From assembly GCA_035504415.1 (NCBI GenBank), contig DATJRY010000012.1:124001-188000 (forward strand): a stretch of 64,000 bases of DNA. The letters run 5' to 3'. The translations under genes and the position numbers were made by a program. The notes under the pieces are model-generated. The model saw only the letters and a program-made list of their open reading frames with translations. It did no database searches and had not been told where the DNA came from. This document shows, piece by piece, positions 31,109-53,493 of this stretch (the stretch's first letter is position 1; every line of letters starts with the position of its first letter). This DNA is from Candidatus Sulfotelmatobacter sp. Lineage in GTDB: Bacteria; Vulcanimicrobiota; Vulcanimicrobiia; Vulcanimicrobiales; Vulcanimicrobiaceae.

Positions 31109-31133
31109 GCCCGTTTCGATCCGAGGACCGAAA

Positions 31134-32983: not shown

Positions 32984-33001
32984 TAGACGGATCTCCTTTA
33001 T

Positions 33002-33722: not shown

Positions 33723-33977
33723 GTGAGGCTGATCGAGGACGCGACCGAACCGGTGCGGTTCTACGACAAGAGCGGCCGCGTTCTCGTGGAAAGTACGGCC
33801 AGTAGCGCGGACGAAATCTTCGCGATCTGCGTCACGATGGAAAGCTTCGGATGTGTTCGCCGGGAAGCTGTATCCGCTTGTCGTAAACCGCATTCGACCT
33901 TGAGAACGCCTGAGCGCCTAGATCAGACTTCGACGCCAGCGCCTCATCGGACGGTCGCGGGAAGCTCGCGCTCGTAG
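33723..33977 (+). other. possible gene fragment
   Basis: From GTG 33723 the frame reads RLIEDATEPVRFYDKSGRV..., which resembles real protein for about 40 codons, then loses character. The same frame is open upstream without a start codon (…QHAYNQANNIV). It overlaps the 3' end of the minus-strand locus at 33944. Probably a remnant. Confidence 0.2.
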
Positions 33978-34673: not shown

Positions 34674-34743
34674 CCTTCTGACTTCAATTCTCGGTCTGAA
34701 CTGCCGCGGCGCCGCGCCGCTCGTCGGACACGCGCCATGTAGG

Positions 34744-35247
34744 TCAGGACGTCGGGGGCGCGGGCGCCGCTGTGGCCGGCTTCGGCGGCGTCGGGATTCC
34801 GGGTGTGCCGAACTGCGGCGGAAAGACGGATAAGTGCAGCATGCGCAGCGCCAACAAGCGCTTCACCATGTGGTAGACGCATCCGACGAACCAGACGATC
34901 AGAACGGCAATGACCGCGCCGCGCAGCATCGGCTGCCATTTCGGGGTCGCGGTGCAGACTACGTAGAGGCAGCCGGCCAAAAGCGTCGAGAGCCAGCAAC
35001 TGACGATCATCATCCCGATCTCGGCGCCGATGAACGCGACCGAGGCCTGCGCGTCGGCCTTTGCCTTCTCAAGAATCGGGGCAAACTTCGTGACGTTCTT
35101 GAACTCATCGCTCACGCGGTGAGGTATGAACGATACGAGAAAATGAAGTAGCTGGACCAGGGGCCGGAATAACAGAATCGCGGCGAGTGCCACGACGAGG
35201 TCGACCAGTCTATCGGTGGTCCAGAGATGGTTGAAGAAGTCGTTCAC
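34744..35247 (-). CDS. membrane protein of unknown function
   Basis: A 167-aa protein with hydrophobic segments at about residues 15-40, 70-105 and 110-130 and a Pro-rich cytoplasmic tail (IPTPPKPATAAPAPP). The GTG at 35247 has GAGGG upstream; the longer open frame is not supported. No family recognised. Confidence 0.5.
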   Translation of the reverse strand: MNDFFNHLWTTDRLVDLVVALAAILLFRPLVQLLHFLVSFIPHRVSDEFKNVTKFAPILEKAKADAQASVAFIGAEIGMMIVSCWLSTLLAGCLYVVCTATPKWQPMLRGAVIAVLIVWFVGCVYHMVKRLLALRMLHLSVFPPQFGTPGIPTPPKPATAAPAPPTS

Positions 35248-35269
35248 TGCTGCCCTCGCTAAGTGAGGT

Positions 35270-35725
35270 TTGACCGTCCCATCGTTCGTGACGCGAAGAA
35301 CGACTTCCGTGCGGCGCATCCCGACGACGCGGTCTGCGGCATGGGCGGGCGCGTTCGGGTCAAGCGTAGCCGCATCTGCCCTGGCACTTGGGAAGTCTTC
35401 GCAATACCTCAACGACACCCCGACTGCTCCGAGCCTTCAAGGGCCGGCATTGATGCTGGTCGATCGCATCGGCCTGCTGACTTCCAAGCTCGGCGAGGTG
35501 CAGGTCGTGCTCGCTGGGCTGAAGACGTCGACTTCGGAGCTGGCACGTCGAAGTGCCACGGCTTTGATCACGAGCGGGAGTCTCGATCAAATTCTCCGAG
35601 AAGTGCGAACTGCCGTAGTAGAGCCTCAGCGCAAAGCGGCAACGCATCACTCAGCGCCCCGATGCAGGAAATGCGGACGGGAAGTGCAGATCGCGCGCAT
35701 CCGTGCGGGGGGGGGGCGGCGTTGA
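35270..35725 (+). CDS. hypothetical protein with possible C-terminal zinc ribbon
   Basis: A 151-aa open frame from TTG 35270; ATG 35453 is an alternative start. Residues ~60-110 look helical (LMLVDRIGLLTSKLGEVQVVL, LARRSATALITSG), and RCRKCGREVQIARI resembles half of a zinc ribbon. A run of ten G (from about 35706) sits just before the stop and makes the C-terminal frame uncertain. No family recognised. Confidence 0.35.
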   Translation: MTVPSFVTRRTTSVRRIPTTRSAAWAGAFGSSVAASALALGKSSQYLNDTPTAPSLQGPALMLVDRIGLLTSKLGEVQVVLAGLKTSTSELARRSATALITSGSLDQILREVRTAVVEPQRKAATHHSAPRCRKCGREVQIARIRAGGGRR

Positions 35726-35884
35726 GCAGGCGCCGAGTTGCGCCGGTCTCTTAAGATTAGACGGAATGGGGCGCAGTCCGTCAGGGGCATGCAAGACGCC
35801 GCGGCTGACCTCGGTGCCCTTGCCTACGCGATAGGCATCCCCGCATGAGTTCACTATCGAGTCAGCTTTCTGCCGACTGCGCCG

Positions 35885-36619
35885 CTAAGTGCTCGTACCC
35901 AGCGCGCGTTGTCTCGCCTTCATAAACTGCTCCGCTGCTTCGCGTGAGGCATCGTTCGTCGACGTGAGATACGGTCTCACAGCATCTGCGTAAGACCACG
36001 CTCGAGCGCGCTTCAGCGCAGTGATGGCCGCCCAAACGCTGTCTCCAGTTTTGAGGAAGCCAACGAGCACCAGGACGATTCGCGGATCGTTCCACGCCGA
36101 GATCCTACGCGCGACTTCGTCACGTCCGCTCCCGAGCTTTGCGTCGGAGACAACCTCAAGGAGCACGTCCAGGTCCCTCTTCTCCGCGTTCGCTGCGATT
36201 GCCAGGCCGAGCGCGAACTTCAACCTATCCGTATAAGACTCAGGAAGATGGCGAGCGAGCCAGACCAGCTTCGAAAACGGAGGGTCACCGTAGGTATGAG
36301 CTAGCGCTCGAAGGATGGACTCGGTAACACCCTCGGGATACGGCTTATCCAGTGCCGCCAGCAGTACGGGAACCGCATCTGGATAGCGGAGGCGAACATT
36401 CGCCAAGTCCCAGACAGATGCGAGAGGTATTCCGAGCCCTCGCAACTCTGCGACCAGCGGTGCCTCTGCCTGAGTCTCGTCGTTAATGCGCGCGCGGCGC
36501 TTTGCGTCCCAATCGGACCGTGGCGCCTCTAATGGCGCCCCAAGCCCATCCCACGATCGGATCTCAGCCCATGCTTCGGTGGTAGTTGTGGGGTCTGCCG
36601 CTTTCGGCTTTTTCATCAT
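35885..36619 (-). CDS. HEAT-repeat protein, candidate immunity protein
   Basis: A 244-aa protein made of helical repeats (for example DAVPVLLAALDKPYPEGVTE, DPRIVLVLVGFLKTGDSVWA and ALKRARAWSYADAVRPYLTS). Its ATG overlaps the stop of the Rhs-type toxin fragment (ATGA), the usual arrangement of toxin followed by immunity gene. HEAT/Armadillo-like immunity proteins are known in polymorphic toxin systems, so this is a sensible but unproven role. Confidence 0.6.
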   Translation of the reverse strand: MMKKPKAADPTTTTEAWAEIRSWDGLGAPLEAPRSDWDAKRRARINDETQAEAPLVAELRGLGIPLASVWDLANVRLRYPDAVPVLLAALDKPYPEGVTESILRALAHTYGDPPFSKLVWLARHLPESYTDRLKFALGLAIAANAEKRDLDVLLEVVSDAKLGSGRDEVARRISAWNDPRIVLVLVGFLKTGDSVWAAITALKRARAWSYADAVRPYLTSTNDASREAAEQFMKARQRALGTST

Positions 36620-37112
36620 AGTTTGACCCGTGGCACTCGTTCGATGACACCTTTGCCCGACTTTACGAGCGCGTCCATCGCGTCCTGGAGCGGCTTCGAC
36701 AACTGGGTATCGTCGGTGATCCGCAAGACAAAGGTCTTACCGGTGGCTTCCGCCTCTGCCATCTCGTCCTTAATCTGGGACGTGAGGGACTGTTTTACGA
36801 CGTGCTTCGCTTCGCTTCGCCTACCATCGTCTTTGTCAGATTGTCGGCGATGCGCCTTCTGCCGCTCGCCGTCCTGAAGGCACCTTTGACGCAACCCCCG
36901 GCTTCCTCGAATGCTTTTGCCGCGGCGCGTTGAGCCACCGAGAGGCCGCCTCGAATTGGGCCTGCAAGTTCGACCTCGCCCACTGCTTCCGCGCCAGCTG
37001 CGGCCAGTTCTGCCCCTCCGACGACGACCGCTCCTTCGACGACGCATGCGTCCTCGAGACAGTAACCGGACGGATCGGCGTAGGAGTAGGGGTTGTTGCG
37101 ATTCCACATGTA
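36616..37112 (-). pseudogene. C-terminal end of an Rhs-type polymorphic toxin, frameshifted
   Basis: The minus-strand frame from ~37112 reads PYMWNRNNPYSYADPSGY, a characteristic Rhs core end, followed by a variable toxin tip. The tip reads RIADNLTKTMVGEAK and then, in another frame, HVVKQSLTSQIKDEM...LSKPLQDAMD. This order (D, ExK, Q, then LS..L) fits a restriction-endonuclease-fold Tox-REase toxin. The two frames are split by three tandem GCGAA units (36806-36820); removing one unit joins them in frame exactly at the ExK site. The N-terminal Rhs body is absent. Confidence 0.65.
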
Positions 37113-37234
37113 GGGCCGCGGGCGGAGTCTTCGTTGAAGCCGGCTTCATGGGAAACCAGTCGACCAACAAGCAGTTCCTTCCGGTGAACGGTCACGAATC
37201 GGGCGGCTTCGCCGGGGTCGGCCTGCACTTCTGA
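37110..37234 (+). pseudogene. C-terminal fragment of a beta-barrel-like protein
   Basis: On the plus strand the frame reads GGVFVEAGFMGNQSTNKQ then ESGGFAGVGLHF and stop at 37234. Ending with an aromatic Phe after alternating residues is typical of the last strand of outer-membrane barrels. It starts where the opposite-strand Rhs fragment begins, so both are truncated at the same point. Confidence 0.45.
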
Positions 37235-37236
37235 GC

Positions 37237-37656
37237 ATGGACGTCTCGGTCTCGAAGCCCGTGCTGGATTCCGTCGTACACACGCTGTCGGCGATCGAAT
37301 ATCTGCTGCGTCTCGGTTTGACGTCGATCACCGACAACGCCGATGCACTTGCGACACTCGGGTTTAAGCCTGCCTATCCCCAAATCAAGAGCGGATACGA
37401 GTCAACGATTTGGGAGCGGAGGATAGAGAGGGGTCGCCTCAATCACGACGGACACCATTTGTTGCGACGTGGTATCGTCGCGAGGCGTTGCTCGGCTGAA
37501 AGCGGTCCGCGCGGAGGCAAGGGCGCGTCTAACCACCGGCTGCACCGCGCTGTAGATGCGAAGGTCCCAGCCGCTAGGTATTGCGCGCGTGACGTGACGC
37601 CAAGGCAACCCCGCGGCAACGTGATGCTCTGGGTTGCGCGCGCCTCGTCTAAGGCG
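37237..37656. other. 420-bp stretch, possible start of an unknown plus-strand gene
   Basis: From ATG 37237 the plus frame (DVSVSKPVLDSVVHTLSAIE then LGLTSITDNADALATLGFKP) looks coding for about 60 codons with high GC3, then degrades. The same frame continues over the minus-strand remnant at 37657. Nothing here is recognised. Confidence 0.3.
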
Positions 37657-37848
37657 CTAGGGGCGGCCCTTGAGAACCTGCGCCAGGCTTTCGGCGCCGA
37701 CGCGGTCGACGTAGTTTCCGAGTTTCATGTCGCCGCGGACGCCGGAAGCGAAGTCGTCTCCGTACTCGTTGCGCAGCGTCCGAATGAGCGTGTCGCTGCG
37801 TTTGCGGTGGATCTCGCCGTCGACGTCCCCGACGCCTGGCTGCTTAGG
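37657..37848 (-). pseudogene. remnant of the DUF2442-protein C-terminal module
   Basis: A 63-codon minus-strand frame without a start codon, directly after a TAA, ending at 37657. It reads EIHRKRSDTLIRTLRNEYG then GVRGDMKLG, a clear relative of the last ~52 residues of the intact protein at 38242-38862 (HIHHKRGDTLVRTLRDTYG, GVRGDMRLD), by eye about 60 percent identical. A truncated duplicate of that gene in the opposite orientation. Confidence 0.6.
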
Positions 37849-37987
37849 TTACTGAGCCATCTGAGTTAGATCTAGTCTCCATGGATAGGTAGGCGTCCTC
37901 GCCAAGATGCCTGCTCGGTATGCCAGCCTATTGGCATCCCGGCGTCCCTGTGAAACCGAAACACGCTTCGGTTACCTGTAGGTTGCG

Positions 37988-38245
37988 GTGAGCACGGTTC
38001 ACGGCGGCGGGGTCCGCTTTCGAATTCACCCGCAAGACCACGAGCCGGTCCATGCTCACGGCAGGTACGCTGAGACGGTGGTGGTCGTGGACCTTTACGC
38101 CGATGGGTCCGTCGGGCTCGCCGACCGCGACGATGCGATCATCCCGCGCAACGCGAAGGCGAGCGACGTTCGCCGTATTCTTAGGGCCGCAGGCGAGCAC
38201 TACGAGGCGATCGTTGAGGCTTGGATGCGGATGCAGGGACAATGA
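37988..38245 (+). CDS. DUF4160 protein, candidate partner of the DUF2442 gene
   Basis: An 85-aa DUF4160-type protein: VRFRIHPQDHEPVHAHGRYA (~9-28) is the HxPxHxH-like hallmark and VRRILRAAGEHYEAIVEAW (~61-79) the C-terminal helix. Starts at GTG 37988. Its stop overlaps the ATG of the DUF2442 gene (ATGA). Adjacent DUF4160 and DUF2442 genes are often proposed to form toxin-antitoxin-like pairs. Confidence 0.75.
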   Translation: MSTVHGGGVRFRIHPQDHEPVHAHGRYAETVVVVDLYADGSVGLADRDDAIIPRNAKASDVRRILRAAGEHYEAIVEAWMRMQGQ

Positions 38246-38862
38246 GCAAGCAAGTCAGTCACCCCATTCGGACCACCGAGGCCCAACTTGAGGCCGCTCT
38301 CGCAAAGGCGCGCGACTACGATGCCGTCCGACCGCGAGCTCTTGATGTCAGCTATCGCGACGCAGATGACATGGTCATCATGCGGCTCGCCACCGGTATT
38401 GAAATGGCATTTCCCCGCCAGCTGCTTCAAGGGCTCGAGAATGCTACCCCCGAGCAGCTTCGCGATGTGAGTATTGACGACTTCGGATCGTCGCTCCACT
38501 GGAACCAGCTCGACGTGGACCATTACGTTCCAGGCCTCATTGAGGGCATTTTAGGAACGCGGGCCTGGATGAGCCGAATCGGTAAGAGGGGTGGGTCCGC
38601 AAGAAGCGATGTGAAGGCGGCGGCGGCGCGAGAAAATGGCGCAAAAGGTGGCCGCCCCTCACAGCCTGGCTTAGATGCTCGCAATCGCGATACGGGCGGC
38701 CATATTCATCACAAGCGCGGTGATACTTTAGTTAGAACGCTGCGAGACACATATGGAGACAGCTTCGCCCCAGGTGTTCGAGGCGATATGAGGCTCGACA
38801 CGCTGCTCAAGCGAGAGAATGCGAAATCACTTGACGATCTCCTAAAGCGACGAAGAAAATAG
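38242..38862 (+). CDS. DUF2442 protein with extended C-terminal module
   Basis: A 206-aa protein. Residues ~32-100 form a DUF2442 domain (DMVIMRLATGIEMAFPRQLL, then SIDDFGSSLHWNQLDVDHYVP). A linker rich in Ala, Gly and Lys (GKRGGSARSDVKAAAARENG) leads to a separate basic module (~150-206: HIHHKRGDTLVRTLRDTYG). That module recurs alone as a remnant at 37657. DUF2442 is usually only about 80-100 residues, so the extension is the notable part. Likely binds DNA to regulate the pair. Confidence 0.75.
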   Translation: MSKQVSHPIRTTEAQLEAALAKARDYDAVRPRALDVSYRDADDMVIMRLATGIEMAFPRQLLQGLENATPEQLRDVSIDDFGSSLHWNQLDVDHYVPGLIEGILGTRAWMSRIGKRGGSARSDVKAAAARENGAKGGRPSQPGLDARNRDTGGHIHHKRGDTLVRTLRDTYGDSFAPGVRGDMRLDTLLKRENAKSLDDLLKRRRK

Positions 38863-38995
38863 CGTCGCTCGAGTTAGCCTGATCACCTCACGCGTCGCCG
38901 CTGCTTTCGATGGAACATAGCCGAGCTGCCGACGGTTCAAGGCTGCATCCTGACGCGGTGGGGCGAGCGAACCCCCTACCTCCGAAGTCAAGAAT

Positions 38996-39352
38996 GTGAA
39001 ACTGATTGCAGGGATAGCGAGTACCACCCATGCTGACGCCCACGAGGAGGTGGTTCCGCTCAATGCCTTAGAGAGCATGGCGCGCCAAGTCCGCGAGCGC
39101 TTCATTCCACAACTGATCGATCACGACCCGAATCAGCAGGTTGGCGTGAATCTTTGTGCTCGAGTCGACGAGCTCGAAGATGGAGAGTACGCGCTCGTTG
39201 TCGTCAGCGGCATCTTCGAGAAACCCGAGGAGCGCCTTCTCTACCGGACCTTCGCGGCGAACACGGTGTGGAAAAACTACCTGCCGTACCTCGATAGCGT
39301 GCTTGAGGATGCCGATCTGCCCGAGGAGACCCTTGCGCCAGACTCGCTCTAA
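38996..39352 (+). CDS. hypothetical protein, weakly prohead-protease-like
   Basis: A 118-aa protein from GTG 38996. Its beginning (KLIAGIASTTHADAHEEVVP), HDPNQQVG and the following beta-rich DGEYALVVVSGIFE recall the N-terminal part of phage prohead proteases or XkdF-like proteins, but it is short and lacks an obvious catalytic set, so I do not assign that function. It lies 70 bp upstream of a damaged DUF4160 gene. Confidence 0.5.
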   Translation: MKLIAGIASTTHADAHEEVVPLNALESMARQVRERFIPQLIDHDPNQQVGVNLCARVDELEDGEYALVVVSGIFEKPEERLLYRTFAANTVWKNYLPYLDSVLEDADLPEETLAPDSL

Positions 39353-39421
39353 ATCGATGTAGACGTCATTTCGTCGTTGCTTGAACGGTGGTTAGATTCG
39401 ACGCCGGAGCGGGGCGAGTAC

Positions 39422-39669
39422 GTGATCAAGCACCTCGTCGCCAAGACGAGGGATCTTGCCATTGAGGTCTACCACGACCACGATCCGCCACACTTCCACG
39501 TGGTCTCAAGCCGCGACGGATCAACGCGCGCTTCCACCTTGACACGCTCGAGCCGTTTGCTGAAACCTGCATCAGCGCTCGGGACGTTAGAAAGATCCGC
39601 GATTTCTTCCGAGAACGGCTCGGACTCGCCGACAAGTTGAGGGAAGAGCACGCGCGGATGCAGAGTTAA
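39422..39669 (+). pseudogene. second DUF4160 gene, frameshifted
   Basis: From GTG 39422 (ribosome-binding site GGAGCGGGG) the frame reads IKHLVAKTRDLAIEVYHDHD then PPHFHVVSSRDG. It then loses sense but is continued in another frame (NARFHLDTLEPFAE ... RDFFRERLGLADKLREEHAR) to a stop at 39669. Adding one A to the GGATC at about 39519-39523 joins the two into a normal ~83-aa DUF4160 protein. Confidence 0.65.
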
Positions 39670-40084
39670 TGAACGCAAGGCGCTCCAGGCATATTTGAAC
39701 CGGAAGAAAACCCGCGATGCGGCCTACAACGATTTCATTACTGAGCTCGAGGCTGGAATTGGTGGGTGAGCTGCCGCCGGATGGCGAGCTTGTTTTTGTC
39801 TTTCCAATTGGTCATGGTCGCTTTGAGGCAACCAATGCAGACCTATCACCGCTGGGCCAAGGGACTCTTCCTCCCGGGGCGACGCTTCGCGAATCGGGAG
39901 AACGAGCTCGCGTCGAGGAAGGGCGGATTGTGCCGCATCGTGTCCTTTGGTTCTAGGGAAGCTATTCGCGACGGAGGTCGCCCGCGGCTCGGCGGACGCG
40001 AAGTCGAGAAATGTGACGCAGGTAGAAGCTGGGAAAACGCGGCGGTATTCTCCTGGTCCCCATCGGGTGAAGAAGTGAGCAGCT
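39670..40084. other. 415-bp stretch without a secure gene
   Basis: A short plus frame (ERKALQAYLNRKKTRDAAYN, ~39670-39770) is protein-like but has no start. Two longer plus frames from 39717 and 39766 overlap each other and neither is convincing. Possibly more decayed toxin-antitoxin sequence. Confidence 0.35.
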
Positions 40085-40508
40085 ATGGGTGCTAAGATGC
40101 CTCTCGATGGCCTACGCGCGTGGCTCTTCGAAATCATCGGAGAGGTCGTTCCCGGAGTGTTCGCGGGACTTCTGATCTTCACGGCCGTTTGGACACCTGA
40201 ACGTAGTGCTGCGTTGGAAACTCGGAGCAGCCCTAAAACCGCTTGCCGACGTCCCGTTTCCTGTTGCTCTGCTGCTTGTGGGAGCGGCCTACTGCTCGGG
40301 CAGCAGGGCGGCGATGTCCGAGGACGCCCCAGCCCCCAAGCTCGCCAAAGAGAATGCGCGCCACCTCCTGTCTGGGGTGAAGGCGGGTACGTCAAGCGCG
40401 ACTAGTCCCGACCTAGCGCGCATTGTTGGCCGTGGTCTCCTCCCGTGGCTTCAACTGTACGATCGCGATCGGGCGGCGCTCCGCTGGCGGCCGGGATGGC
40501 GCACATGA
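40085..40508 (+). pseudogene. small membrane protein, frameshifted
   Basis: From ATG 40085 the protein starts with a hydrophobic segment (IIGEVVPGVFAGLLIFTAV). The reading continues sensibly in the adjacent frame (FGHLNVVLRWKLG, VPFPVALLLVGAAYCSG, ... ARIVGRGLLPWLQLYD) to 40508. The change lies between about 40160 and 40200. The joined ~140-aa product has two membrane helices. It overlaps the start of the next locus. Confidence 0.5.
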
Positions 40509-41619
40509 ACGACGATGCGCAGCCCACGCCGGTCGTTGTCGCCCGACCGAGCGAGAGGTGCCAGCCGGGTCCGAAACCGCGCCGGCTCACCAAGCGGCGA
40601 TTACGCAAACTCGATAAAGCCAAGAAAAAGCGGAAATCGAAATGGCGCCAAGAGCATCTTTCTCCCCTCGAGCGGCTGATCCGTTGGGGTGTGCCGTCGA
40701 CGTCCCTGCACTTATACGCGAAGTGGTGGCAACTCGAGCGGTGGCTGCGCGACCTCGCGCAACTCGAACTCCAAGCGCGGTTTAAGCGCGAGTGGAAAGC
40801 GCAGATTGCGCGGATCGAGAACCGGCGGGACCTTCAGGCGCCCGGCCTTCGCTACATGCCCTCTTCCGATGACTCCAATCCGCTGGGCTTCGCCGATTTC
40901 GGCGATTTGCGAAAGCTCTTGATGTCCATTGGGATCTCTTCGCTTATGCCTTACCACCAAAGGCACGCTGGACCGGTACAATCGACACTCCGACGGCGGT
41001 GCGTCGTCGCATTGCGCATTGCCGTACGCCGCATCAGGACGATCTCGCGCGCGTCGAGCAGACACTACGCGACCTTGAGGATGGTGCGCGCGCCTGCCTC
41101 CAAGCATACACTTCGTGGGAGTGGATTACACCTGAATCCGACGCCGAGCTTGGGGCTTTCTCTCCAGGCGGGCGGCTCTACGGGCGCTTGGAACATGCGC
41201 GCGATCAGTATGAAACGACGATCCGGCTCCATCGCACGACGCGCCCTTGGTCGACGGAGTCGAGCCCAGGCACCCTGTATCATGCGCATTTCCACTGCAG
41301 CAGACGGCCGCCTGATCCGGTGCACGTTTGGAACTATCTTGGCGGTTCGGACGAGCTGCCGGATCTGGTGCACTTGAACTTCTACGCGTTCAATAATGTT
41401 GAAGCGGTGTTCACGCTGTCAAGTCCGGACGCCGCCGTGCAACTCATTGACAGCGTTCTTGAGGCCGTCCTGGTCTCCGAGCGACCGCGACCGGACGCAT
41501 GGTATGACGATTGGGCACAAGCAGCGCAGTCTTTGGATTATCGCATTCACGCCGATGACTACTTCGCTAAGGCAACAAATCTTGCGCGTGACGGTCGGGT
41601 ATTCTTTGAGCAAATCTAA
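40496..41619 (+). pseudogene. hypothetical ~373-aa protein, frameshifted near 40913
   Basis: From ATG 40496 an N-terminal basic segment (KRRLRKLDKAKKKRKSKWRQ) is followed by helices to LGFADFGDLRK. The frame then loses sense, but one extra A in the CGAAAGC at about 40911-40917 continues it as ALDVHWDLFAYALPPKARWT and onward through QDDLARVEQTLRDLEDG to 41619. The second half (LYHAHFHCSRRPPDPVHVWN, LPDLVHLNFYAFNNVEAVF) is well-behaved protein. Family not recognised. Confidence 0.55.
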
Positions 41620-41673
41620 CGGGAGCTACCCTAAAGGTTAGAGCAATTGTCTTCGGAGCATTTTGATGAAACT

Positions 41674-42330
41674 TCAATCGCTTGCCGGATAGCCGCGGAT
41701 ACCGAAGCACAGGAGCGGTTCAATCGACTGAGCATCTGCGATGACGCGGATAGCACCGCAGCGATCGGTACGGTAGACGCGCGCGCGGGCGGCGGCGAGG
41801 CGGTCGAGTGTCTCTGGTGATGGATGGCCGAAGCTGTTGTGCCGACCAACGGAAATCAATGCAACGTGCGGACGAACGGCGGCGAGGAACGCGGCCATGC
41901 TCGCCCAGCGCGATCCGTGATGGCCGACCTTGAGAAGGTCCGCGCGCACGTCGGCGCCGCGCGCCAACAGGCGCGCTTCGCTACCTTCGCCAGCGTCGCC
42001 GGTGAAGAGTGCGCGGTAGGCCCGTCCATCCGGAAGCCGATACGACAGCCGCAGCACGATGCTGTTCTCGTTGACGTCGTCGCCGGTATCGGCGAGGAAC
42101 GGTTCCGAAGGCGCCAGCACGTCGAGCACGACACCGTCGTCGGTCTGCCACTGCATGCCCGCCCGCACGACGCGCACCGGGACGCCGCGCTCACGAGCGG
42201 CGGCAAGACAATCGACGTACGCCCGCCCACCATACTGCTGACCGCTATCGGCGATCGTATCGACCCGCAGCGCTCGCACGATGGGCGCGCATCCACCGAC
42301 GTGATCGCCAGGTCCCGTTTCTGAAACAGC
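41674..42330 (-). pseudogene. ComEC/Rec2-type metallo-beta-lactamase domain, N-terminally truncated
   Basis: The minus frame from about 42330 begins inside a metal motif (PGDHVGGCAPIVRAL) and continues as the C-terminal MBL-fold half of ComEC-like proteins: ENSIVLRLSY, ALFTGDAGEGSE, LLKVGHHGSR and RHNSFGHPSPETL. The membrane part of ComEC and the N-terminal strands of the MBL domain are missing. The break abuts the transposase element, which suggests disruption during insertion. Confidence 0.65.
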
Positions 42331-42459: not shown

Positions 42460-43467
42460 CTAGAGCCTCAGGCTGGACGGATACAGATCCGGAATCCGCG
42501 GGATGTACCCGGCGAGACTGGTGAGCTGGAGGAAGCGCCGCACGTTCAGCGTGATGGCGATCATGAGCATCTGGTTGACCGGTCCGTGCTTCCGCATAGA
42601 CGTGAGTTTGGGCCACTCGCGCTTGATCACCGAGAAGACGTTCTCCATCTTCGCCCGTTTCGAATAGAGCGAGTGGAATCGCTCAGGCTCGTCCCGCCAC
42701 AGCGCGAACATCTCCCCGATCTGCGGATGGTCGAGCAGTACCTGCTCCATCCCGAGCTTTACCGCCCTCTTCGCGTTCTCGGGATACGGGATCGTGGACT
42801 TGGCGCCGTACTTCGCGATCAGGGACCGGGTGGTGGTTCCATTGAAGCCGCCGTCTGCGAGCACGTCCTTCAGCGGCATTCCCAGCGATGCCAGCCAGGT
42901 CAGCATGTCGTCCAGGGCGGAGCGCTCGCCGACCGAGGGAGAGTAGACTCGGACGTCGCCGATGATCATGTACGGGAAGGCCGCGATCGCGACAACGCGC
43001 TGCCACCCCTCCTTGACGTCGACGATGTCGCCCCACCGCAGGTGGCCGCGCGACCCGACGTCGGCCGTCTCGCCCTCGCCGACCTCTTCGTAGATCGGAG
43101 CGTCCCCGTCGTTCCCCCTGGCTTTCATCTTTCGGACGTCCTTGCGGTATCGGAAGTAGCCGTTGCCGGACATGCCCGTTCCGTCCGTCGCCCAGTTGCC
43201 GTCCATAAACGGCGCGAGCAAGAGCAACGTGACGGCCAGCAGGAGGCGCAGGTAGGACTCCGTCGACTTCGCCGTCGTCAGGCGCGAAATGATGGGCGGA
43301 CTCGGAATCGATTTCTCCGCCTGCTTCTTGGCCTCGGTCGGGGTGAGGATCCCGCAGTCGGGAAGATGGAGCCGGCGGCCGGGCACCACCAGTCCGCGCA
43401 CCGTTTCGAGCGCTGCGTACGCGCCGATCGAGACGTCCACGTTACGCCGCCTCCCCGAGCTGCTCAC
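42460..43467 (-). CDS. DDE transposase (IS4/IS5-like catalytic half)
   Basis: A 335-aa DDE-type transposase. Catalytic positions are visible: Asp in NWATDGTGMSG (~91-101), Asp in DVLADGGFNG (~200-209) and Glu in KRAKMENVFSVIKRE (~283-297). It lacks a DNA-binding N-terminal domain; the SWIM-type protein immediately upstream (overlap 26 bp) appears to supply it. Starts at GTG 43467 or at GTG 43440 just past the upstream stop. One of a three-gene unit. Confidence 0.82.
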   Translation of the reverse strand: MSSSGRRRNVDVSIGAYAALETVRGLVVPGRRLHLPDCGILTPTEAKKQAEKSIPSPPIISRLTTAKSTESYLRLLLAVTLLLLAPFMDGNWATDGTGMSGNGYFRYRKDVRKMKARGNDGDAPIYEEVGEGETADVGSRGHLRWGDIVDVKEGWQRVVAIAAFPYMIIGDVRVYSPSVGERSALDDMLTWLASLGMPLKDVLADGGFNGTTTRSLIAKYGAKSTIPYPENAKRAVKLGMEQVLLDHPQIGEMFALWRDEPERFHSLYSKRAKMENVFSVIKREWPKLTSMRKHGPVNQMLMIAITLNVRRFLQLTSLAGYIPRIPDLYPSSLRL

Positions 43468-46253: not shown

Positions 46254-46691
46254 CTACTCGGGCTTCAAGACGAAGTCCGCGAGCCGGACGTCGAGGAAAT
46301 CGCAGATCATGAGAAGCCGGGGCAAGGCAAGGTGCTTCCCGCCTTCCATCTGGCTGACTTGCGCGTTTGTCGAACCGATGGCTACCGCGACTTCGGCTTG
46401 CTTGCGACCGCGAAGCTTTCTCACTTCGCGCACGCGCCGATGATCGAGCCTTTGCTCCGCAGGATCCAGCGAGACGCCGTGCGCGTCGAGGTGCCTGGTC
46501 AACGCCTCGATCGCTAGACGCGGCTCCCCTTCGGCGATCGCGAGTTGGGCTGTGCGGACGGGACCCCCGGTACGGCCGGGCGGCAGCTTTGCAAGCTCGT
46601 TGGCCAAGTTGTATGCTGCCAGCTCCCGCGTCGGCAACAGGGCCGGATCGAACTCGGATGCGACGAGGGACAGGCGCGGACGTTCCGCCAC
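46254..46691 (-). CDS. XRE-family transcriptional regulator
   Basis: A 145-aa protein: a helical N-terminus (~1-80; LPTRELAAYNLANELAKLPP) and an XRE HTH (~90-140: VREVRKLRGRKQAEVAVAIG then STNAQVSQMEGGKHLALPRL). GTG 46691 with AAGGGAG is preferred over a longer in-frame start. It is divergent from 46754; the AT-rich spacer with repeated TATATTCAC is its likely operator. Confidence 0.75.
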   Translation of the reverse strand: MAERPRLSLVASEFDPALLPTRELAAYNLANELAKLPPGRTGGPVRTAQLAIAEGEPRLAIEALTRHLDAHGVSLDPAEQRLDHRRVREVRKLRGRKQAEVAVAIGSTNAQVSQMEGGKHLALPRLLMICDFLDVRLADFVLKPE

Positions 46692-46710
46692 GATGAACTC
46701 CCTTGAACAG

Positions 46711-46747
46711 CTATATTCACTTATATCGCTTTCTATCCTATATTCAC
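46711..46747. promoter_or_regulatory. AT-rich divergent operator region with direct repeat
   Basis: CTATATTCAC occurs at 46711-46720 and 46738-46747 (27 bp apart) in an unusually AT-rich 60-bp spacer between the XRE gene and 46754. Likely promoters plus an autoregulatory operator. Confidence 0.45.
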
Positions 46748-46753
46748 AAGTAG

Positions 46754-47119
46754 ATGGAACCTCATTGGGAATCGTTCGCAATTGATGCGGGACCAGACTG
46801 GCCGCGCGGGTTCGAAGCGGCGGTGCCAGCTCTGGCGGAGGTCCGACGATCCATACGCAGCCGTCTCCCCGAGCGGGTTCGACTGCTTCTTGAACTCGCA
46901 GAATGGGTCGGCATCGACGCGGCGTGCGAGATGTCAGTCGCGGAGTTGGACGCTCTCGTAGGGGAGATGCCCGAGCCGGTGCGGGCCCGGTGCGCGGTCA
47001 TCGCGACCTCGCCGCACGTCTTCGACGTCGAAGGTCGGCCGGCGTCCGTCGCGGACGTGATTCGATGGCTGGCGATGGCATTCGAAGAGGCCAGGCTAGA
47101 CCGGCTCATGTCAACGTAA
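46754..47119 (+). CDS. hypothetical helical protein
   Basis: A 121-aa protein from ATG 46754, mostly helical (AEVRRSIRSRLPERVRLLLE, ELDALVGEMPEPVRARCAVI). Divergent from the XRE regulator. No family recognised; it precedes the QueC-like operon by 58 bp. Confidence 0.5.
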   Translation: MEPHWESFAIDAGPDWPRGFEAAVPALAEVRRSIRSRLPERVRLLLELAEWVGIDAACEMSVAELDALVGEMPEPVRARCAVIATSPHVFDVEGRPASVADVIRWLAMAFEEARLDRLMST

Positions 47120-47177: not shown

Positions 47178-47729
47178 GTGGCCACCGACTGCGATCGCTG
47201 TGCAGGCGTCCTCGATAAGCGATTTTCGAGCTCCGCGTATCTTCTGACGACGGGATCGCAGGAGGCGGCCGAATCGTCGGCCGCCTATGCGCTCCGTCGG
47301 GAGCGTGAAGCGGAGCCCGAGCTTCGAGATCTCTTCGTTCGTCTATTGAACGTCGTGCGCCGCGAGCGACGCTCCCCACGGCTGCCAGGCATGGGCGATG
47401 ACTCCGAGATACGGTCGTTGCGCGAGCGCGCGATGCAATCCAAGCCCGGGATGCGTCTTATCGCCGCCTTCGACGATGCGATGCGCGACGGATCCGATCT
47501 GGCCGGCGCCTTCGCGGCGCGCAGTTACAACTGGATGCGCGGATGTCTAGAGGTGATGAACGACTGGCCCGGGGCTCGCCATCCCTTCCGGGACTGCGAG
47601 AGCGAGTTCAAACGGCTGCTGGTCGGCAAGATTCGGCGGGCGTTCCTCCATGTCGGCGAGCCGGCCGAGAAGTCGGCGCCGGCGACCCAGGGCCAGATCC
47701 TGGAAACCCCCTTTCCGGTCAATACCTGA
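47178..47729 (+). CDS. hypothetical protein, first gene of the QueC-like operon
   Basis: A 183-aa protein starting at GTG 47178. It has CDRC near the N-terminus and is largely helical (ESSAAYALRREREAEPELRD, RRAFLHVGEPAEKSAP). Its TGA shares one base with the ATG of the QueC-like gene, so expression is coupled. No family recognised. By analogy with QatB in Qat systems it might be the substrate or partner of the QueC-like enzyme, but I see no sequence proof. Confidence 0.55.
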   Translation: MATDCDRCAGVLDKRFSSSAYLLTTGSQEAAESSAAYALRREREAEPELRDLFVRLLNVVRRERRSPRLPGMGDDSEIRSLRERAMQSKPGMRLIAAFDDAMRDGSDLAGAFAARSYNWMRGCLEVMNDWPGARHPFRDCESEFKRLLVGKIRRAFLHVGEPAEKSAPATQGQILETPFPVNT

Positions 47730-49063
47730 TGGGCATGCCGGTAGTCGATGCCGCCGTCTACTTCGACGGCTGCTGGATGCGCGTCGAGACGCGCCGTGCG
47801 CCGTTCGAGCCCGCGCAAGTCGAAGCGCGGATCAATCTCGACGATCTCAATCCGCTCACGCCGCGCGCCAGCGCGCCGGAATTGTTCGAGCTGCTCGACT
47901 TGCTGATCGCCGTGTATGCTCTCGACCGGTCTGTTAGCCGACCGGCCGACGGCTGGGCACGCGAATTCAACATCTGCTTTCCTGTATATCGCGTCGAAGA
48001 CTGGCGTCGGCATGCCCCTCTGGTTCGCGAGTGGCTCTTTTCCCTCACCGGCGACTTCGTCGAGGTCGCGCCCATGCCCAGAACGTCAAGCGCGGGACAT
48101 CACGGACGCCCACCAAGCTTGGACCTGAACGGCGGCGCGGACGTGATCGGGCTCCTAAGCGACGGCCTCGACTCGCTTTGCGGCATCGACACCGCGGTGC
48201 GCGACAGGACGCGCAGACTGGCTCTCGCATCCGTGATTACCAGCGATACGCGCGGACGCCGGATTGACGAAATGGCTCGGTGGGCGACCGCGGCCGCCGG
48301 ATACGATGTTGAGCACCTGCGCCTGCGGACCAAGTTGCGCCGGAAGCCAAGAGCCGAGAAGACGCAGCGTTCTCGTACGGTACTTGCGCTCGTTACGGGG
48401 CTCACGGCGGCGAGCGCCCTAGGCGCGAAGTATGTCGAGTCGTACGAGAACGGAATCGGCGTGCTCAACTTGCCGGTGCCGGATCTGCAATACGGCACCA
48501 TGTCCACGCAGGTATTGCAACCCCGGTACCTTCCGATTTGGGATCGCATCGCCCGTGCGTTCTTCGGCGCGGACATCCGAGTGCGGTACCCCAACCGGTT
48601 CAGTACCAAAGGTGAAATGGTAGCCGGACTCTCGCCCGAAGCCTCACGCCTGGTGCGCGACGGAACGTTCTCGTGCGACGCGGAGCATCGAGCGAACGGG
48701 CACATACTCCACTGCGGGAGCTGCGGTTCCTGCCGCTACCGTCAGCTCTCGCTCGCGTCCAGCGGTATGCCCATCGTCGACGCGGAGTACGTCTTCCGGA
48801 AGGTCAAGGAGTACCGTGCCGACCCCCTCAACATGATGCGTTATCACGCGGACCTTCTCGCGGAAGCGCTCTCGGAGGCGGATCCGTGGTCGGCGCTTCT
48901 GCGGTTGCAGCCTGAACTGTGTGGCGTCGACTCGGCCGAATACGCGCGCGGCGGAGATGCCGCGGACGCCTGGCGCGTGGACGCGCGCGAGCACACGATC
49001 GAGCTGCTGCGGCGTCACGTCCGAGAAGTGCAAGGATGGCGAGTCGCTTCACATGCCGCTTGA
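47729..49063 (+). CDS. QueC-like PP-loop ATPase (QatC/Cap9-type), N-terminally extended
   Basis: A 444-aa protein, about twice the size of housekeeping QueC (7-cyano-7-deazaguanine synthase). Residues ~1-135 form an unknown extension. The PP-loop reads SDGLDS (144-149; QueC has SGGxDS). ENGIGVLNLP (~240-249) and the zinc site C316 ... C329-G-S-C332-G-S-C335 (CGSCGSCRYR region) follow. Such divergent QueC proteins occur in Qat (QatC) and type IV CBASS (Cap9) antiphage systems, where they act on deazaguanine or protein substrates. No other queuosine genes are nearby, so a defence or modification role fits better. ATG 47729 overlaps the upstream stop; downstream gene overlaps by 11 nt. Confidence 0.82.
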   Translation: MGMPVVDAAVYFDGCWMRVETRRAPFEPAQVEARINLDDLNPLTPRASAPELFELLDLLIAVYALDRSVSRPADGWAREFNICFPVYRVEDWRRHAPLVREWLFSLTGDFVEVAPMPRTSSAGHHGRPPSLDLNGGADVIGLLSDGLDSLCGIDTAVRDRTRRLALASVITSDTRGRRIDEMARWATAAAGYDVEHLRLRTKLRRKPRAEKTQRSRTVLALVTGLTAASALGAKYVESYENGIGVLNLPVPDLQYGTMSTQVLQPRYLPIWDRIARAFFGADIRVRYPNRFSTKGEMVAGLSPEASRLVRDGTFSCDAEHRANGHILHCGSCGSCRYRQLSLASSGMPIVDAEYVFRKVKEYRADPLNMMRYHADLLAEALSEADPWSALLRLQPELCGVDSAEYARGGDAADAWRVDAREHTIELLRRHVREVQGWRVASHAA

Positions 49064-50237
49064 TGGCATAGACCTGGACCCTGGCCGGATCGGCGCAAAC
49101 ATCGCGAACGCCCGAAAGCGGGCGGAGCCGCCGCTCAATCAGAAGGAACTCGCCGACCGTGTTGGCGTCTCGCGCGCGACCTTGGTGTCGATCGAGAGCG
49201 GACAGCGCCCGCCGTCGTCGACCGTCCTGGCTGCGATCGCCGACGCCCTGAAGGTCCGCGTTCGGGACATCGTCGCCCTGCCCGTCCAGGACGAAGCGGC
49301 GACGATTCGCTTCCGCAATCCGCTGCGCGGCGACGAGTCGGCCGAAGCAGCCGTGAACGCGCTGATCGATTTCGCGCGTCGCTACGCGATCCTCGAAGAG
49401 CAGATCGGTCGTCGTCGGGTCCGCACCATTCCGCCCCTGGCGTTGAACGACGGAGATGACGTCGAGCACGTCGCAGAGGACCTCGCGACCGCCGAGCGTT
49501 CGCGCTTCAATCTCGGAGACGGACCGTTACTCGACCTCAGGTCGGTCCTGGAAAATGACGTCGGGATGCTGATCTTCGGCCTGCCCGAACTGGGCAAGAC
49601 GAAGATCGCCGGGCTGTTCACTTTCGCGCAGGATCTTCCCATGGTCGGCTTCAACGTGCGGCAGGCCGACCCAAGAAGACGGCGATGGACCCTGGCGCAC
49701 GAGTACGCGCACTACCTCACCAATCGGTTCGACGCGGAAGTGACCTACGAGGCGGGCGAACGACGCTCGCGCGATCCATATGAGCAGCTCGCCGAGCGAT
49801 TTGCCGCGCACTATCTCATGCCCGCCAGCGGCGTGACCCGCCGATTCGCGGAGCTGATCGGCGGAGCTAAGAGCGCCACCGTCGCGCACGTCGTCATGCT
49901 CGCGAATCAGTTCCGCGTATCGTTCCAGGCCATGTGTGAGCGCCTGGAGCGACTGGACCGGATACCGAGAAACACGTACGACTACGTGATGGCTCAAGGT
50001 TTCCGCCCGATCGAGGCCGAGCTTTCTCTCGGCATCGAGCGCAAAGACGAGAAACTCTCGTCCTACCCGGCGCGCTACATCTACCTGCTGTCGGTCCTGC
50101 ATCGCCGGGGTGCCGTGAGCGAAGGCGACGCGGCGGCATATTTGCAAACGGACCGTCTAAGCGCGCGGGAAGCGCTCTCGACGATCGAAGCCGATCCGTT
50201 CTTCCCGATGGACATGTCCCTGGAGGACCTGTCCTGA
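49053..50237 (+). CDS. XRE HTH-ImmA/IrrE zinc metallopeptidase
   Basis: A 394-aa fusion. N-terminal XRE HTH (~13-72: NQKELADRVGVSRATLVSIE) and an ImmA/IrrE peptidase with zinc motif HEYAH (216-220, in WTLAHEYAHYLTN), followed by E in YEQLAERFAAHYLMPA (~244-259). These proteins cleave or control partner repressors and are common in toxin-antitoxin and mobile-element operons. ATG 49053 lies inside the QueC-like gene; the stop overlaps the PIN start (CTGA). Confidence 0.87.
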   Translation: MPLDGIDLDPGRIGANIANARKRAEPPLNQKELADRVGVSRATLVSIESGQRPPSSTVLAAIADALKVRVRDIVALPVQDEAATIRFRNPLRGDESAEAAVNALIDFARRYAILEEQIGRRRVRTIPPLALNDGDDVEHVAEDLATAERSRFNLGDGPLLDLRSVLENDVGMLIFGLPELGKTKIAGLFTFAQDLPMVGFNVRQADPRRRRWTLAHEYAHYLTNRFDAEVTYEAGERRSRDPYEQLAERFAAHYLMPASGVTRRFAELIGGAKSATVAHVVMLANQFRVSFQAMCERLERLDRIPRNTYDYVMAQGFRPIEAELSLGIERKDEKLSSYPARYIYLLSVLHRRGAVSEGDAAAYLQTDRLSAREALSTIEADPFFPMDMSLEDLS

Positions 50238-50752
50238 ACGTCCTGGCCGCAGATGCCTCGTCCCTCATCAATCTCTTCGCGTTCACGGACGGAGCAGGCT
50301 TCGGTTATCCTCTGGAATGCGTCGTGGGGCCGGCCTTCGCTAACGAGGCGCTCTACGCGTATGCGGACGACACGTTGACGGAGCGGGTAAGACTCAGCGT
50401 CGAGAAGTTCGCGGCCGCCGCGATCAACATCTCGGAGCTTCGGCTGACCGATCCCGAGGTAGACGGCTGGGTCAAGTACGCGAGTCGGCTCGACGACGGC
50501 GAGGCTCAGGCGTTGGCGCTCGCCGCCGGACGCGGATTGGCAATACTTACCGACGATACTGCCGGCATCCGTCTCGGGAACGAGATCGGCGTAGAGGTGG
50601 TGACCAGCCTGGATCTCGCCCACTCCTGGTCGGCCACCGCGACGGCGGACGGCATTCGCGCCGCCTGTCGACGGTTGCGGCACAGGGCGCGATTCGCGGT
50701 GCCGCGGCAAAGCCCGCACGCAGACTGGTACCGATCGATGCTCGACGGCTAG
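50234..50752 (+). CDS. PIN-domain protein starting at CTG
   Basis: A 172-aa PIN-fold protein. Active-site acids: Asp7 (VLAADASSLINL), Glu90 (RLDDGEAQALALAAG) and Asp107/108 (ILTDDTAG). PIN nucleases cut RNA and are often toxins. No ATG, GTG or TTG precedes the conserved N-terminus; CTG 50234 has GGAGG at 7-nt spacing and overlaps the upstream TGA as CTGA. Co-expressed with the ImmA/IrrE gene, a known toxin-antitoxin-like combination. Confidence 0.78.
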   Translation: MNVLAADASSLINLFAFTDGAGFGYPLECVVGPAFANEALYAYADDTLTERVRLSVEKFAAAAINISELRLTDPEVDGWVKYASRLDDGEAQALALAAGRGLAILTDDTAGIRLGNEIGVEVVTSLDLAHSWSATATADGIRAACRRLRHRARFAVPRQSPHADWYRSMLDG

Positions 50753-51297: not shown

Positions 51298-52419
51298 ATG
51301 TCACTCCGCCCTGATCGGCAAGCTGATGCCATGCCCGCACGTGATGACGAGCCAGATCCCCTCAAAGTAGCCGCTGATGCTGTCGCAGAAAAGTTAGACG
51401 CGGACATCCTGCTGGTAAACGGGGACCTGAGTTTCGGCCTTCAGGAAACTGTGATCGAGCTGGTCCGCGAGCGACGTCGCCGGACGAACGTAGCCCTCGT
51501 TCTGGTGACATACGGCGGCTACGCTGATCCAGCGTACCGGATCGCTCGCACGTTACAAGACAAGTACGAGAAGTTCTACGCCTTCGTGACAGGGATGTGC
51601 AAGAGCGCTGGCACTCTCCTCGTCATTGGGGCGGACGAGATCGTCATGTCGGACTACGGCGACCTGGGCCCGCTCGACATCCAGGCACTCAAGGACGACG
51701 AACTTGGGCAGATGTCGTCCGGCCTCACGACGCAGTTCACCTTCGACGAACTCCGTCATGAAACCAGACTTTTGTTCGAACATCTATGGCGGGACATCAA
51801 GCGGAGCACGTACGACCGGATCTCGTTCCGCACTGCCGCGGAGTACGCCACGAACATGACCATCGGGCTCATGAGCCCGATTTACAGCCAGATAGCTCCC
51901 CTCGCGTTGGGCGAGATCGGGAGAGCCAACAACATCACGCGCGACTACGGAGAGCGCCTGGCGGAGGTTTCCAAGAACCTCCGAGATGGCACACTGGACA
52001 AGCTGACAGACTCGTATTCTCACCATGGCTTCGTGATCGACCGGGCCGAAGCAAGCAGGCTATTCGAAAACGTACGGGAACCAGATGACGGGGAGTGCCG
52101 TTTCTTTGATGCCCTGGGCAAGCAGGGGCGGCAGCCACATCCCCGTTCGGGTGGCCCGCGCGAGGGGACGGTCGCGTCCTTTCTCTCCGAGGAAGTGGCG
52201 CAACCGCCCGAGATCGGCACCGAGTCTCAAACGGCGCACCCTTCAGACCGAAAGAAAGAACAGCATGGCAACGACGCTGAAAAAGCCGAAGCCCGAAACC
52301 CCAAGCCGGCAAAGCCACAGCGAGCGTCGATTCCAAGCAAAGCGGGACCGCATGCTGGAACGCATGGCTCGCACGGAAAGACGCCGCGAACGGGGAGGAA
52401 CGGAACCCCTACTCGATGA
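51298..52419 (+). CDS. SDH_sah/ClpP-class serine protease
   Basis: A 373-aa protein of the SDH_sah (serine dehydrogenase proteinase) group in the ClpP/S49 fold. Key blocks: LVLVTYGGYADPAYRIARTL (~67-86), nucleophile Ser103 in GMCKSAGTLLVIGADEIVMS, then DYGDLGPLDIQ. A long disordered basic tail (~270-373) follows. It may be soluble, as no signal peptide is seen. Start at ATG 51298 is uncertain (SD very close); a downstream ATG is possible. Confidence 0.75.
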   Translation: MSLRPDRQADAMPARDDEPDPLKVAADAVAEKLDADILLVNGDLSFGLQETVIELVRERRRRTNVALVLVTYGGYADPAYRIARTLQDKYEKFYAFVTGMCKSAGTLLVIGADEIVMSDYGDLGPLDIQALKDDELGQMSSGLTTQFTFDELRHETRLLFEHLWRDIKRSTYDRISFRTAAEYATNMTIGLMSPIYSQIAPLALGEIGRANNITRDYGERLAEVSKNLRDGTLDKLTDSYSHHGFVIDRAEASRLFENVREPDDGECRFFDALGKQGRQPHPRSGGPREGTVASFLSEEVAQPPEIGTESQTAHPSDRKKEQHGNDAEKAEARNPKPAKPQRASIPSKAGPHAGTHGSHGKTPRTGRNGTPTR

Positions 52420-52536: not shown

Positions 52537-53493
52537 ATGATCCCGCTCCTACTGGGCGATACGCCCCCGGACGTGAGCAAGACCCCCGAAGCCGTCAAGG
52601 ACGCGACCGCGGCGTTCCTCGATTGGATGAACGGGCACGTGCCCTTCTTCGCGTGGATCATGCTCGTGCTGCTCGTCGTGATAGTGGTGCTCGTCGCGCG
52701 CGCTCTTCTCGTCAAGATCCGCATCGATGAGAAGAACCGGAAAGATGCCGAAGACGCGATCGCCGGGCAGCGCGCGGCCGAGAACGTTGCGGAGATAGCG
52801 AACGCGGAAAACGATCGACTGCGGCTCATCCTGAAGATGATCGACCGTTCCCTCCGGCGACAGGACGACATCGAGCACGAAGAAGGCAATGCCGTTCTGC
52901 CAGACGGTGTCCGGTATCTGACCGAGTGGATCGTCAGAGGCCTGACGTTCGAGAAACCGGACATCAACAAGCTCGTGGTCTTCCAACCCAGCCGCGAAGA
53001 TCCGAACGTCCTCACCGTGATCGAGCAGAGCGGGATGAGCCCGGAGAGCGGGAGAGCCATTCGCTGGCCCGTCCGTCCCGAGACGGACGACCGCGACAGC
53101 TTCGCCGCGAAGGCGTTCCGCAATAACCGGATCGAGAGATGCGACGACACGCAGCTAGACCCGCGATACGTGCACATCGACGGGCACGCCCCGACGCAGT
53201 CGTACCGGAGCATCGTGGCCGTTCCGATCAGGCACGGTTCGCGGGTCATCGGGGTCTACACGATCGATTCGCGAGAGGCCGCCCGGTTTTCGGCTGGCCA
53301 GCCGATCATCGAGCAACTTGACCTGTACGGTCGCCTGTTTGCCTTGTTCATGGTGCCAACCGTTGGCGACGTGAGTATAATGAACTCGAACGAGGCGCGT
53401 GCCGTTCCCCAGTCAGGCCCGACTGGCTCTCCCCCCGCGCCAAAGGATGAAACCCATGAGCCGCCTCCTGGCGAAGCTCTTCGGACTAACTAA
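52537..53493 (+). CDS. membrane-anchored GAF-domain protein
   Basis: A 318-aa protein with one membrane helix (~37-59: FFAWIMLVLLVVIVVLVA), a coiled-coil/linker (~60-105) and a GAF sensor domain (~115-285: SYRSIVAVPIRHGSRVIGVY, TIDSREAARFSAGQPIIEQL). No output domain is attached, so it may bind a ligand and act through a partner. A small gene starts inside its 3' end. Confidence 0.75.
   Translation: MIPLLLGDTPPDVSKTPEAVKDATAAFLDWMNGHVPFFAWIMLVLLVVIVVLVARALLVKIRIDEKNRKDAEDAIAGQRAAENVAEIANAENDRLRLILKMIDRSLRRQDDIEHEEGNAVLPDGVRYLTEWIVRGLTFEKPDINKLVVFQPSREDPNVLTVIEQSGMSPESGRAIRWPVRPETDDRDSFAAKAFRNNRIERCDDTQLDPRYVHIDGHAPTQSYRSIVAVPIRHGSRVIGVYTIDSREAARFSAGQPIIEQLDLYGRLFALFMVPTVGDVSIMNSNEARAVPQSGPTGSPPAPKDETHEPPPGEALRTN

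Follow-up and report, generated by a model that had tools for sequence, protein, structure and literature searches.

Related systems and the locus under study

In Qat, the N-terminal MGTS tip of QatB is essential, and T278 and T280 are invariant positions of QatC (PMC13279940). In Cap9, the QueC-family enzyme of type IV cyclic oligonucleotide-based antiphage signaling systems (CBASS), a Tyr and an Asp hold 7-deazaguanine (PMC13279940). In the QatC cluster, only about one member in three is reported to have qatA and qatD nearby (PMC13329287), and other contexts for QatC-like enzymes are therefore expected. RosmerTA is an anti-phage toxin-antitoxin system with an ImmA-protease antitoxin, and the ImmA node is associated with PIN-like domains (PMC10440598). 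A 2009 study predicted Xre-COG2856 fusions beside PIN or RelE toxins, and also proposed that Xre-COG2856 forms three-component toxin-antitoxin systems (PMC2701414). Here we describe an operon in which a QatC-like enzyme is encoded beside a RosmerTA-type pair. It occupies positions 47178-50752 of a 64,000-nucleotide stretch (the window) of a 305-kb contig (DATJRY010000012.1) from the 4.2-Mb genome of a member of the Eremiobacterota (Candidatus Sulfotelmatobacter sp., GCA_035504415.1).

The operon consists of four forward-strand genes that are contiguous or overlap. Gene 1 (47178-47729, GTG start) encodes a 183-residue, all-alpha protein that is the candidate partner or substrate of the enzyme encoded next to it. 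Gene 2 (47729-49063) encodes a 444-residue PP-loop ATPase, QatC-like by its PADLOC match, with N- and C-terminal extensions. Gene 3 (49053-50237) encodes a 394-residue, RmrA-like protein in which Pfam and PADLOC profiles recognize an XRE helix-turn-helix domain fused to an ImmA/IrrE (Peptidase_M78) domain. Gene 4 (50234-50752, CTG start) encodes a 172-residue protein that is predicted from its AlphaFold2 model, Foldseek matches and conserved acids to be a PIN-fold RNase.

A first-pass annotation, made from the letters of the window alone, had described these genes as touching or overlapping, and inspection of the nucleotides bears this out. The stop of gene 1 and the start of gene 2 share the sequence TGATG (47727-47731), the ATG of gene 3 (49053) lies 11 nt inside gene 2 (which ends at 49063), and the CTG of the PIN gene (50234) falls within the stop of gene 3 as CTGA, a 4-nt overlap. 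The motif GGAGGA lies 6 nt 5' of this CTG, and no ATG, GTG or TTG is present in the PIN frame upstream of it. The CTG start is likely real because both other PIN-bearing Eremiobacterota loci also have CTGA at this junction and no usual start codon.

The four genes very probably form one functional unit that has been conserved as such. The unit is mobile, and occurs in Eremiobacterota from soil as well as on plasmids of alphaproteobacteria. Our preferred reading, to which we assign a probability of roughly 0.5, is that of a horizontally mobile module in which a QueC-family, Qat-type core is combined with a RosmerTA-type pair, and in which a sensor formed by the enzyme and its partner would control release of the PIN toxin. 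It is probable that the module acts against phages.

Conservation of the four genes as a unit

Homologues of gene 2 (38-51% identity) were identified in three further genomes among the 149 genomes of the phylum that were searched. Genes 1, 2 and 3 are collinear in all three loci and the PIN gene is present in two; with the window included, the complete four-gene order occurs in three of four Eremiobacterota loci. Searches with genes 1 and 4 recovered the Eremiobacterota loci found with gene 2 and gave no strong match elsewhere.

On a Labrenzia plasmid, a gene annotated as '7-cyano-7-deazaguanine synthase' proved to encode the enzyme of the same four-gene unit. Used as a query against 72,556 plasmids, this enzyme recovered 25 records at a coverage of at least 80%. 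The Labrenzia XRE-ImmA protein recovered an identical set (25 of 25), and the Labrenzia PIN protein recovered 26 records, 25 of them in common with this set and the last an orphan PIN in Microvirga. The best 25 plasmid matches to the window's own XRE-ImmA protein are again these module-bearing records (E=7e-22 to 7e-32), beyond which matches fall to about 1e-15 or worse. The 18 plasmid loci retrieved from alphaproteobacteria all share this gene order, with gene 1 frameshifted in one (L051) and gene 2 split in another (L054). Records from Sphingobium, S. fredii, Shinella and Ensifer adhaerens carried no usable annotation, and their gene order was read from open reading frames. What had been proposed as a coupled operon from one locus is a unit kept in the same order in two phyla; this shared order and the identical plasmid record sets of the QatC-like and XRE-ImmA genes exceed what chance would give.

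Gene 3 is related across the two phyla at about 33% identity over its length, and gene 4 is related to the alphaproteobacterial PIN genes (blastp E=3e-11, hhalign E=9e-10); for gene 1 the relationship is marginal (hhalign E=0.0035). Over 19 loci the four genes give distance matrices that correlate with one another at r=0.86-0.98 (Mantel p=0.0005, the permutation floor), a correlation that is expected from joint transfer and is by itself no proof of physical interaction. A tree of 30 enzymes resolves three groups, namely the alphaproteobacterial enzymes, those of Eremiobacterota and Halobacteria, and canonical Qat. Apart from the Eremiobacterota loci, a scan of genome contigs returned only two halobacterial relatives; chromosomal copies are under-counted because the peptide patterns used were built from 4 sequences. 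Three scans of viral contigs returned no copy of the module, and two Listeria phage records gave only a weak match to 36% of gene 2.

These patterns bear on the possibility that two independent systems are simply adjacent, a Qat-like pair (genes 1 and 2) and a RosmerTA-type pair (genes 3 and 4) that would share a promoter and no mechanism, with the toxin-antitoxin only stabilizing the locus. Each half has a known counterpart, in that some phages are blocked by QatBC without the rest of Qat (PMC13279940) and RosmerTA defends by itself (PMC10440598), and in one genome (G115) genes 1-3 occur without the PIN gene. However, the QatC-like gene and this type of XRE-ImmA gene are never apart on plasmids, the reading frames overlap at the border of genes 2 and 3, and the distances correlate across all four genes. 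We consider mere adjacency unlikely, although it deserves to be kept in view.

The QatC-like enzyme

For gene 2, the PADLOC QatC profile gives E=4.6e-36 over residues 51-365 of 444, and the QatC structure 9vlk in the PDB gives E=2e-14. The NCBIfam QatC score is 136 bits, below the cut-off of 280, and that of Pfam QueC (PF06508) is 16.2 bits, below the cut-off of 22. The divergent PP-loop (SDGLDS) and four-cysteine zinc site that were noted at first pass are present as described, the latter formed by C316, C329, C332 and C335. These cysteines, together with S144, G146, D148, S149 and R216, are invariant in 21 enzyme homologues. In the alignment, module enzymes have the loop S[DENK]GxDS and seven canonical QatC proteins have SGGxDS.

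At the position of QatC T278/T280, enzymes of the window's clade have [ST]-x-[VA] and alphaproteobacterial enzymes have Y-x-D-x-R. The Tyr of this motif is present in 16 of 17 alphaproteobacterial enzymes (it is Ala in Roseomonas), whereas the Asp and Arg are invariant, and the motif aligns with YPDCR of QueC (by hhalign and by a match to QueC in the PDB). Given that a Tyr-x-Asp of this kind holds 7-deazaguanine in Cap9, the alphaproteobacterial enzymes may still use 7-carboxy-7-deazaguanine (CDG), and the pocket may have been remodelled in the window's clade. The suggested resemblance to the QueC proteins of Qat and type IV CBASS therefore stands in part. The PADLOC QatC assignment agrees with it, but several QatC features are missing, and the likeness to the CBASS enzyme fits the alphaproteobacterial homologues better than the window copy because the latter lacks the Tyr-x-Asp. 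The MG start of gene 2 was considered as a substrate tip and was rejected, as this start is not conserved.

We also weighed whether gene 2 produces a small 7-deazaguanine, as a replacement source of preQ0 for tRNA or DNA, and thus substitutes for a QueC that is missing from the class. No canonical QueC above cut-off was identified in the window's genome or in any genome of its class, and homologues of QueD, QueE and TGT are encoded in the window's genome. The QueE-like radical-SAM gene and the QueD-type gene are close together (G000:C17:121617-123142; L064:4618-5193 and beyond), with TGT elsewhere in the genome; the QueE assignment comes from reading the sequence rather than from a family model. 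Given these QueD-type and QueE-like genes, CDG is probably available in this genome. Canonical QueC is missing class-wide, however, and the module occurs in only 4 of 149 genomes. In addition, no que or dpd genes are adjacent, the Tyr-x-Asp is lost in the window's clade and a QatC could not replace QueC in E. coli (PMC13329287). Thus, preQ0 replacement appears highly improbable, and a place in queuosine or preQ0 synthesis was rejected on the lack of que neighbors and the sub-threshold Pfam QueC score. The first-pass annotation had named two grounds for abandoning a defense role, namely that the QueC-like gene clusters with queuosine genes or that it never co-occurs with the other three; the gene does co-occur with them and has no que neighbors, and a defense role is not refuted.

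The predicted protease antitoxin and PIN protein

Gene 3 matches Pfam Peptidase_M78 (6e-15) and HTH_3 (2e-12), and PADLOC RmrA (2.7e-24). Its assignment as a HExxH-containing ImmA/IrrE regulator is well founded, as the motif is present as HEYAH and HExxH is invariant in 22 homologues. The window's gene 4 protein has no match to Pfam PIN. Its AlphaFold2 model (pLDDT 84, from a 3-sequence alignment) finds mostly PIN/VapC structures by Foldseek (best E=9.7e-4), and a Sinorhizobium homologue scores above the Pfam PIN cut-off. At the level of the predicted structure, gene 4 is thus confirmed as the PIN protein that it had been taken for. The PIN acids D7, E38, D88 and D107 are conserved, with D7 absent only where annotated starts are truncated. 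Catalytic residues are intact in all three predicted enzymes of the module. Genes 3 and 4 match the RosmerTA, or Xre-COG2856-PIN, type of toxin-antitoxin, for which toxicity and its neutralization are predicted here.

The candidate helical partner

The AlphaFold2 model of the gene 1 protein (pLDDT 84) has nine helices, and the C-terminal 21 residues (163-183) fall below 50. No Pfam, PADLOC or NCBIfam match was identified for the protein, and no PDB match below E=1 for its model. The N-terminal tip is MATDCDR in the window and M(A)TDxDR in the three other Eremiobacterota homologues, and alphaproteobacterial proteins start with M[STR]DG (MSDGP or MTDGP). The 17 alphaproteobacterial sequences are only about 17-33% identical to the first of them. 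Their mean pair identity is 0.83 in tip columns 2-5 vs 0.26 in the rest, and the best internal stretch of four columns reaches 0.54. Over all 21 gene 1 proteins the values are 0.67 for the tip and 0.22 for the rest. Gene 1 thus appears to evolve fast except at its N-terminal tip.

The opposite end of the protein could instead be the site of reaction, with the enzyme adenylating the C-terminal carboxylate of gene 1 and joining it to another molecule. The window protein has a disordered C-terminal tail, most alphaproteobacterial gene 1 proteins end in D-x-G-P/V, and the nucleobase motif is missing from the window's enzyme. However, the C-terminal ends differ between the phyla, whereas an N-terminal M-(x)-x-D is common to both, and we regard activation of the C-terminus as quite improbable.

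Genomic context

Defense genes often flank the module, according to a descriptive list of its neighbors. AbiE is encoded near the module in three loci (L035, L040 and L055), one of which also has AbiJ-NTD4 (L040). Also present are Fic (L039), a reverse transcriptase (L042), Lit (L043), Shedu (L046) and an Eco57I-type methylase (L050), as well as VapBC with an integrase in two loci (L045 and L047). A type IV restriction enzyme follows the PIN gene in one Eremiobacterota locus (L010). These neighbors bear on whether the four genes could be an addiction or stress toxin-antitoxin, in which genes 1 and 2, as chaperone or co-antitoxin, would modify or stabilize the XRE-ImmA antitoxin and the trigger would not be phage. 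Such a role would suit plasmid copies, 20 of 25 of which are on conjugative or mobilizable plasmids, and agrees with the three-component Xre-COG2856 prediction (PMC2701414). That many loci are flanked by defense genes, and that relatives of the QatC family act in defense, speaks against it, and we think it distinctly unlikely.

Two optional genes precede the operon. A 121-residue protein is encoded at 46754-47119 (forward strand); of the other three Eremiobacterota loci, L009 and L008 also have it (tblastn E=1e-12 and 3e-10, respectively), with no tblastn match in L010. A divergent XRE-type regulator (46254-46781, reverse strand; Pfam HTH_3 1e-7) is kept in the two loci with the 121-residue gene (tblastn E=5e-8 and 7e-8).

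On the 3' side, the PIN gene is followed by a ClpP-like, SDH-family serine protease (51298-52419) that matches the phage family phrog_21683 with E=2.5e-69, and then by a GAF protein (52537-53493). A 540-residue protein at 58801-60423 matches the PADLOC candidate PDC-M36A (E=1e-10). To the left, G+C is 0.58-0.62 at 26000-42000 compared with about 0.69 further left, and a transposase is encoded at 42460-43467; the drop in G+C and the transposase make it likely that a mobile island adjoins the four-gene module. In G115, where the PIN gene is absent, a 304-residue protein with a weak MarR-type match is encoded 3' of gene 3 on the same strand (L008:4785-5699), possibly a different effector. In G114, a 649-residue protein with apparent membrane helices near its C-terminus is encoded close behind the PIN gene on the same strand (L009:9215-11164); it has no family match except a weak one to MarR.

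Proposed function

In the mechanism that we propose, the QatC-like enzyme would bind the helical gene 1 protein, as QatC binds QatB, adenylate a carboxylate and link it to the N-terminal tip of that protein. In alphaproteobacteria the substrate could be CDG or a similar 7-deazaguanine, and in the window's clade another or an unknown molecule. The complex of enzyme and partner would hold a resting state, or signal it to the XRE-ImmA protein; this protein would repress the operon and neutralize the PIN protein. Phage infection would disturb this state and lead the ImmA metalloprotease to cleave the antitoxin (or the partner), and the freed PIN would cleave RNA and stop growth. The CTG start and the stop-start overlap would limit PIN translation and couple it to that of the antitoxin. 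The first-pass idea that the genes may couple nucleobase or protein modification to an RNase under protease control is, like phage defense, a prediction of the same kind.

A number of observations weigh against this reading. The activities of all four genes are predictions, and the reaction of QatC itself has not yet been reconstituted (PMC13279940). The nucleobase motif Tyr-x-Asp is lost in the window's clade. Modification of the gene 1 tip is an analogy, because gene 1 lacks Gly2 and has no detectable homology to QatB (hhalign E of at least 0.1 against five QatB proteins); profile searches without a match led us to reject the idea that gene 1 is a QatB homologue. The tip is ordered in the model (block pLDDT 80), in contrast to the long, flexible tail of QatB. 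Within the four Eremiobacterota sequences, too few for judging tip conservation, the tip (0.58) is less conserved than the best internal stretch (0.67). The C-terminal tail is partly conserved as well, through the alphaproteobacterial D-x-G-P/V end, and either end is therefore a candidate for modification. Finally, the G115 locus has genes 1-3 without a PIN gene, and the enzyme tree, being unrooted and with long branches, is compatible with one as well as two origins of the unit.

A more far-reaching version would make the module a new anti-phage class, in which a QueC-family ligase tags a helical sensor protein at its N-terminal tip (with 7-deazaguanine in alphaproteobacteria and a different small molecule in Eremiobacterota) and in which a metalloprotease antitoxin, controlled by this tag, sets free a PIN RNase. 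We hold this version to be less likely than not. If the module does work as proposed, the QueC-family defense core would be modular and could have a toxin-antitoxin as its effector. The alphaproteobacterial members lend themselves to reconstitution in vitro with CDG, because they keep the QueC/Cap9 nucleobase motif that is lost in QatC, and QatC-type function may be easier to test with them.

Comparison with known systems

Gene 2 is homologous to QatC over the core and the N-terminal extension, including the zinc site, and as in Qat an all-helical partner with a conserved N-terminal tip is encoded 5' of the enzyme. However, QatA (a KAP ATPase) and QatD (TatD) are absent from the window and the annotated plasmid loci, whereas canonical Qat loci of the same phylum and of plasmids do carry them. 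In the partner, M(A)TD or M[STR]DG stands in place of the MGTS tip, and no homology to QatB could be detected. The enzyme has S[DENK]GxDS rather than SGGxDS as its PP-loop, and T278/T280 are replaced by [ST]/[VA] here and by Tyr-x-Asp in alphaproteobacteria. Plain Qat was thus rejected, as QatA, QatB and QatD are absent.

Type IV CBASS shares with the module a QueC-family enzyme beside a partner with a conserved N-terminal tip, and nearly all alphaproteobacterial homologues, but not the window's clade, share its Tyr-x-Asp motif. Pfam, PADLOC and NCBIfam profiles identified no CD-NTase in the operon, which also lacks Cap10, and the module is not type IV CBASS. Moreover, the module enzyme has about 450 residues rather than about 185, and its partner is unrelated and lacks Gly2, whereas the CBASS CD-NTase has the tip MGGS.

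The two halobacterial relatives (L016 and L017) have an SDGLDS enzyme and no adjacent QatA or QatD, as in the module, but no XRE-ImmA or PIN neighbor was found for either. In the Halosimplex locus (L016:6867-9185), the QatC-like enzyme follows a 158-residue protein that starts with MGSATS, which the module does not have, and a 143-residue protein. This locus may represent yet another QueC-family system, one whose partner has Gly2.

Like RosmerTA and the Xre-COG2856-PIN systems, genes 3 and 4 comprise a fused XRE-ImmA gene that overlaps a toxin-type PIN gene. They differ from RosmerTA in being preceded by genes 1 and 2 in every locus found, and gene 3 branches apart from the other XRE-ImmA proteins of plasmids (about 1e-15 or worse, vs 1e-22 to 1e-32 within the branch). 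In VapBC the partner of the PIN toxin is a VapB-type antitoxin, whereas the partner here is the XRE-ImmA protein. The first impression that the gene set matches no known defense system holds for the whole set in the searchable literature, but not for genes 3 and 4. No publication joining QueC with ImmA and PIN was identified in the PMC library, which lacks most subscription papers and preprints. The context of a QatC-like enzyme with a protease-PIN pair is apparently undescribed so far, and both halves of the module have known relatives.

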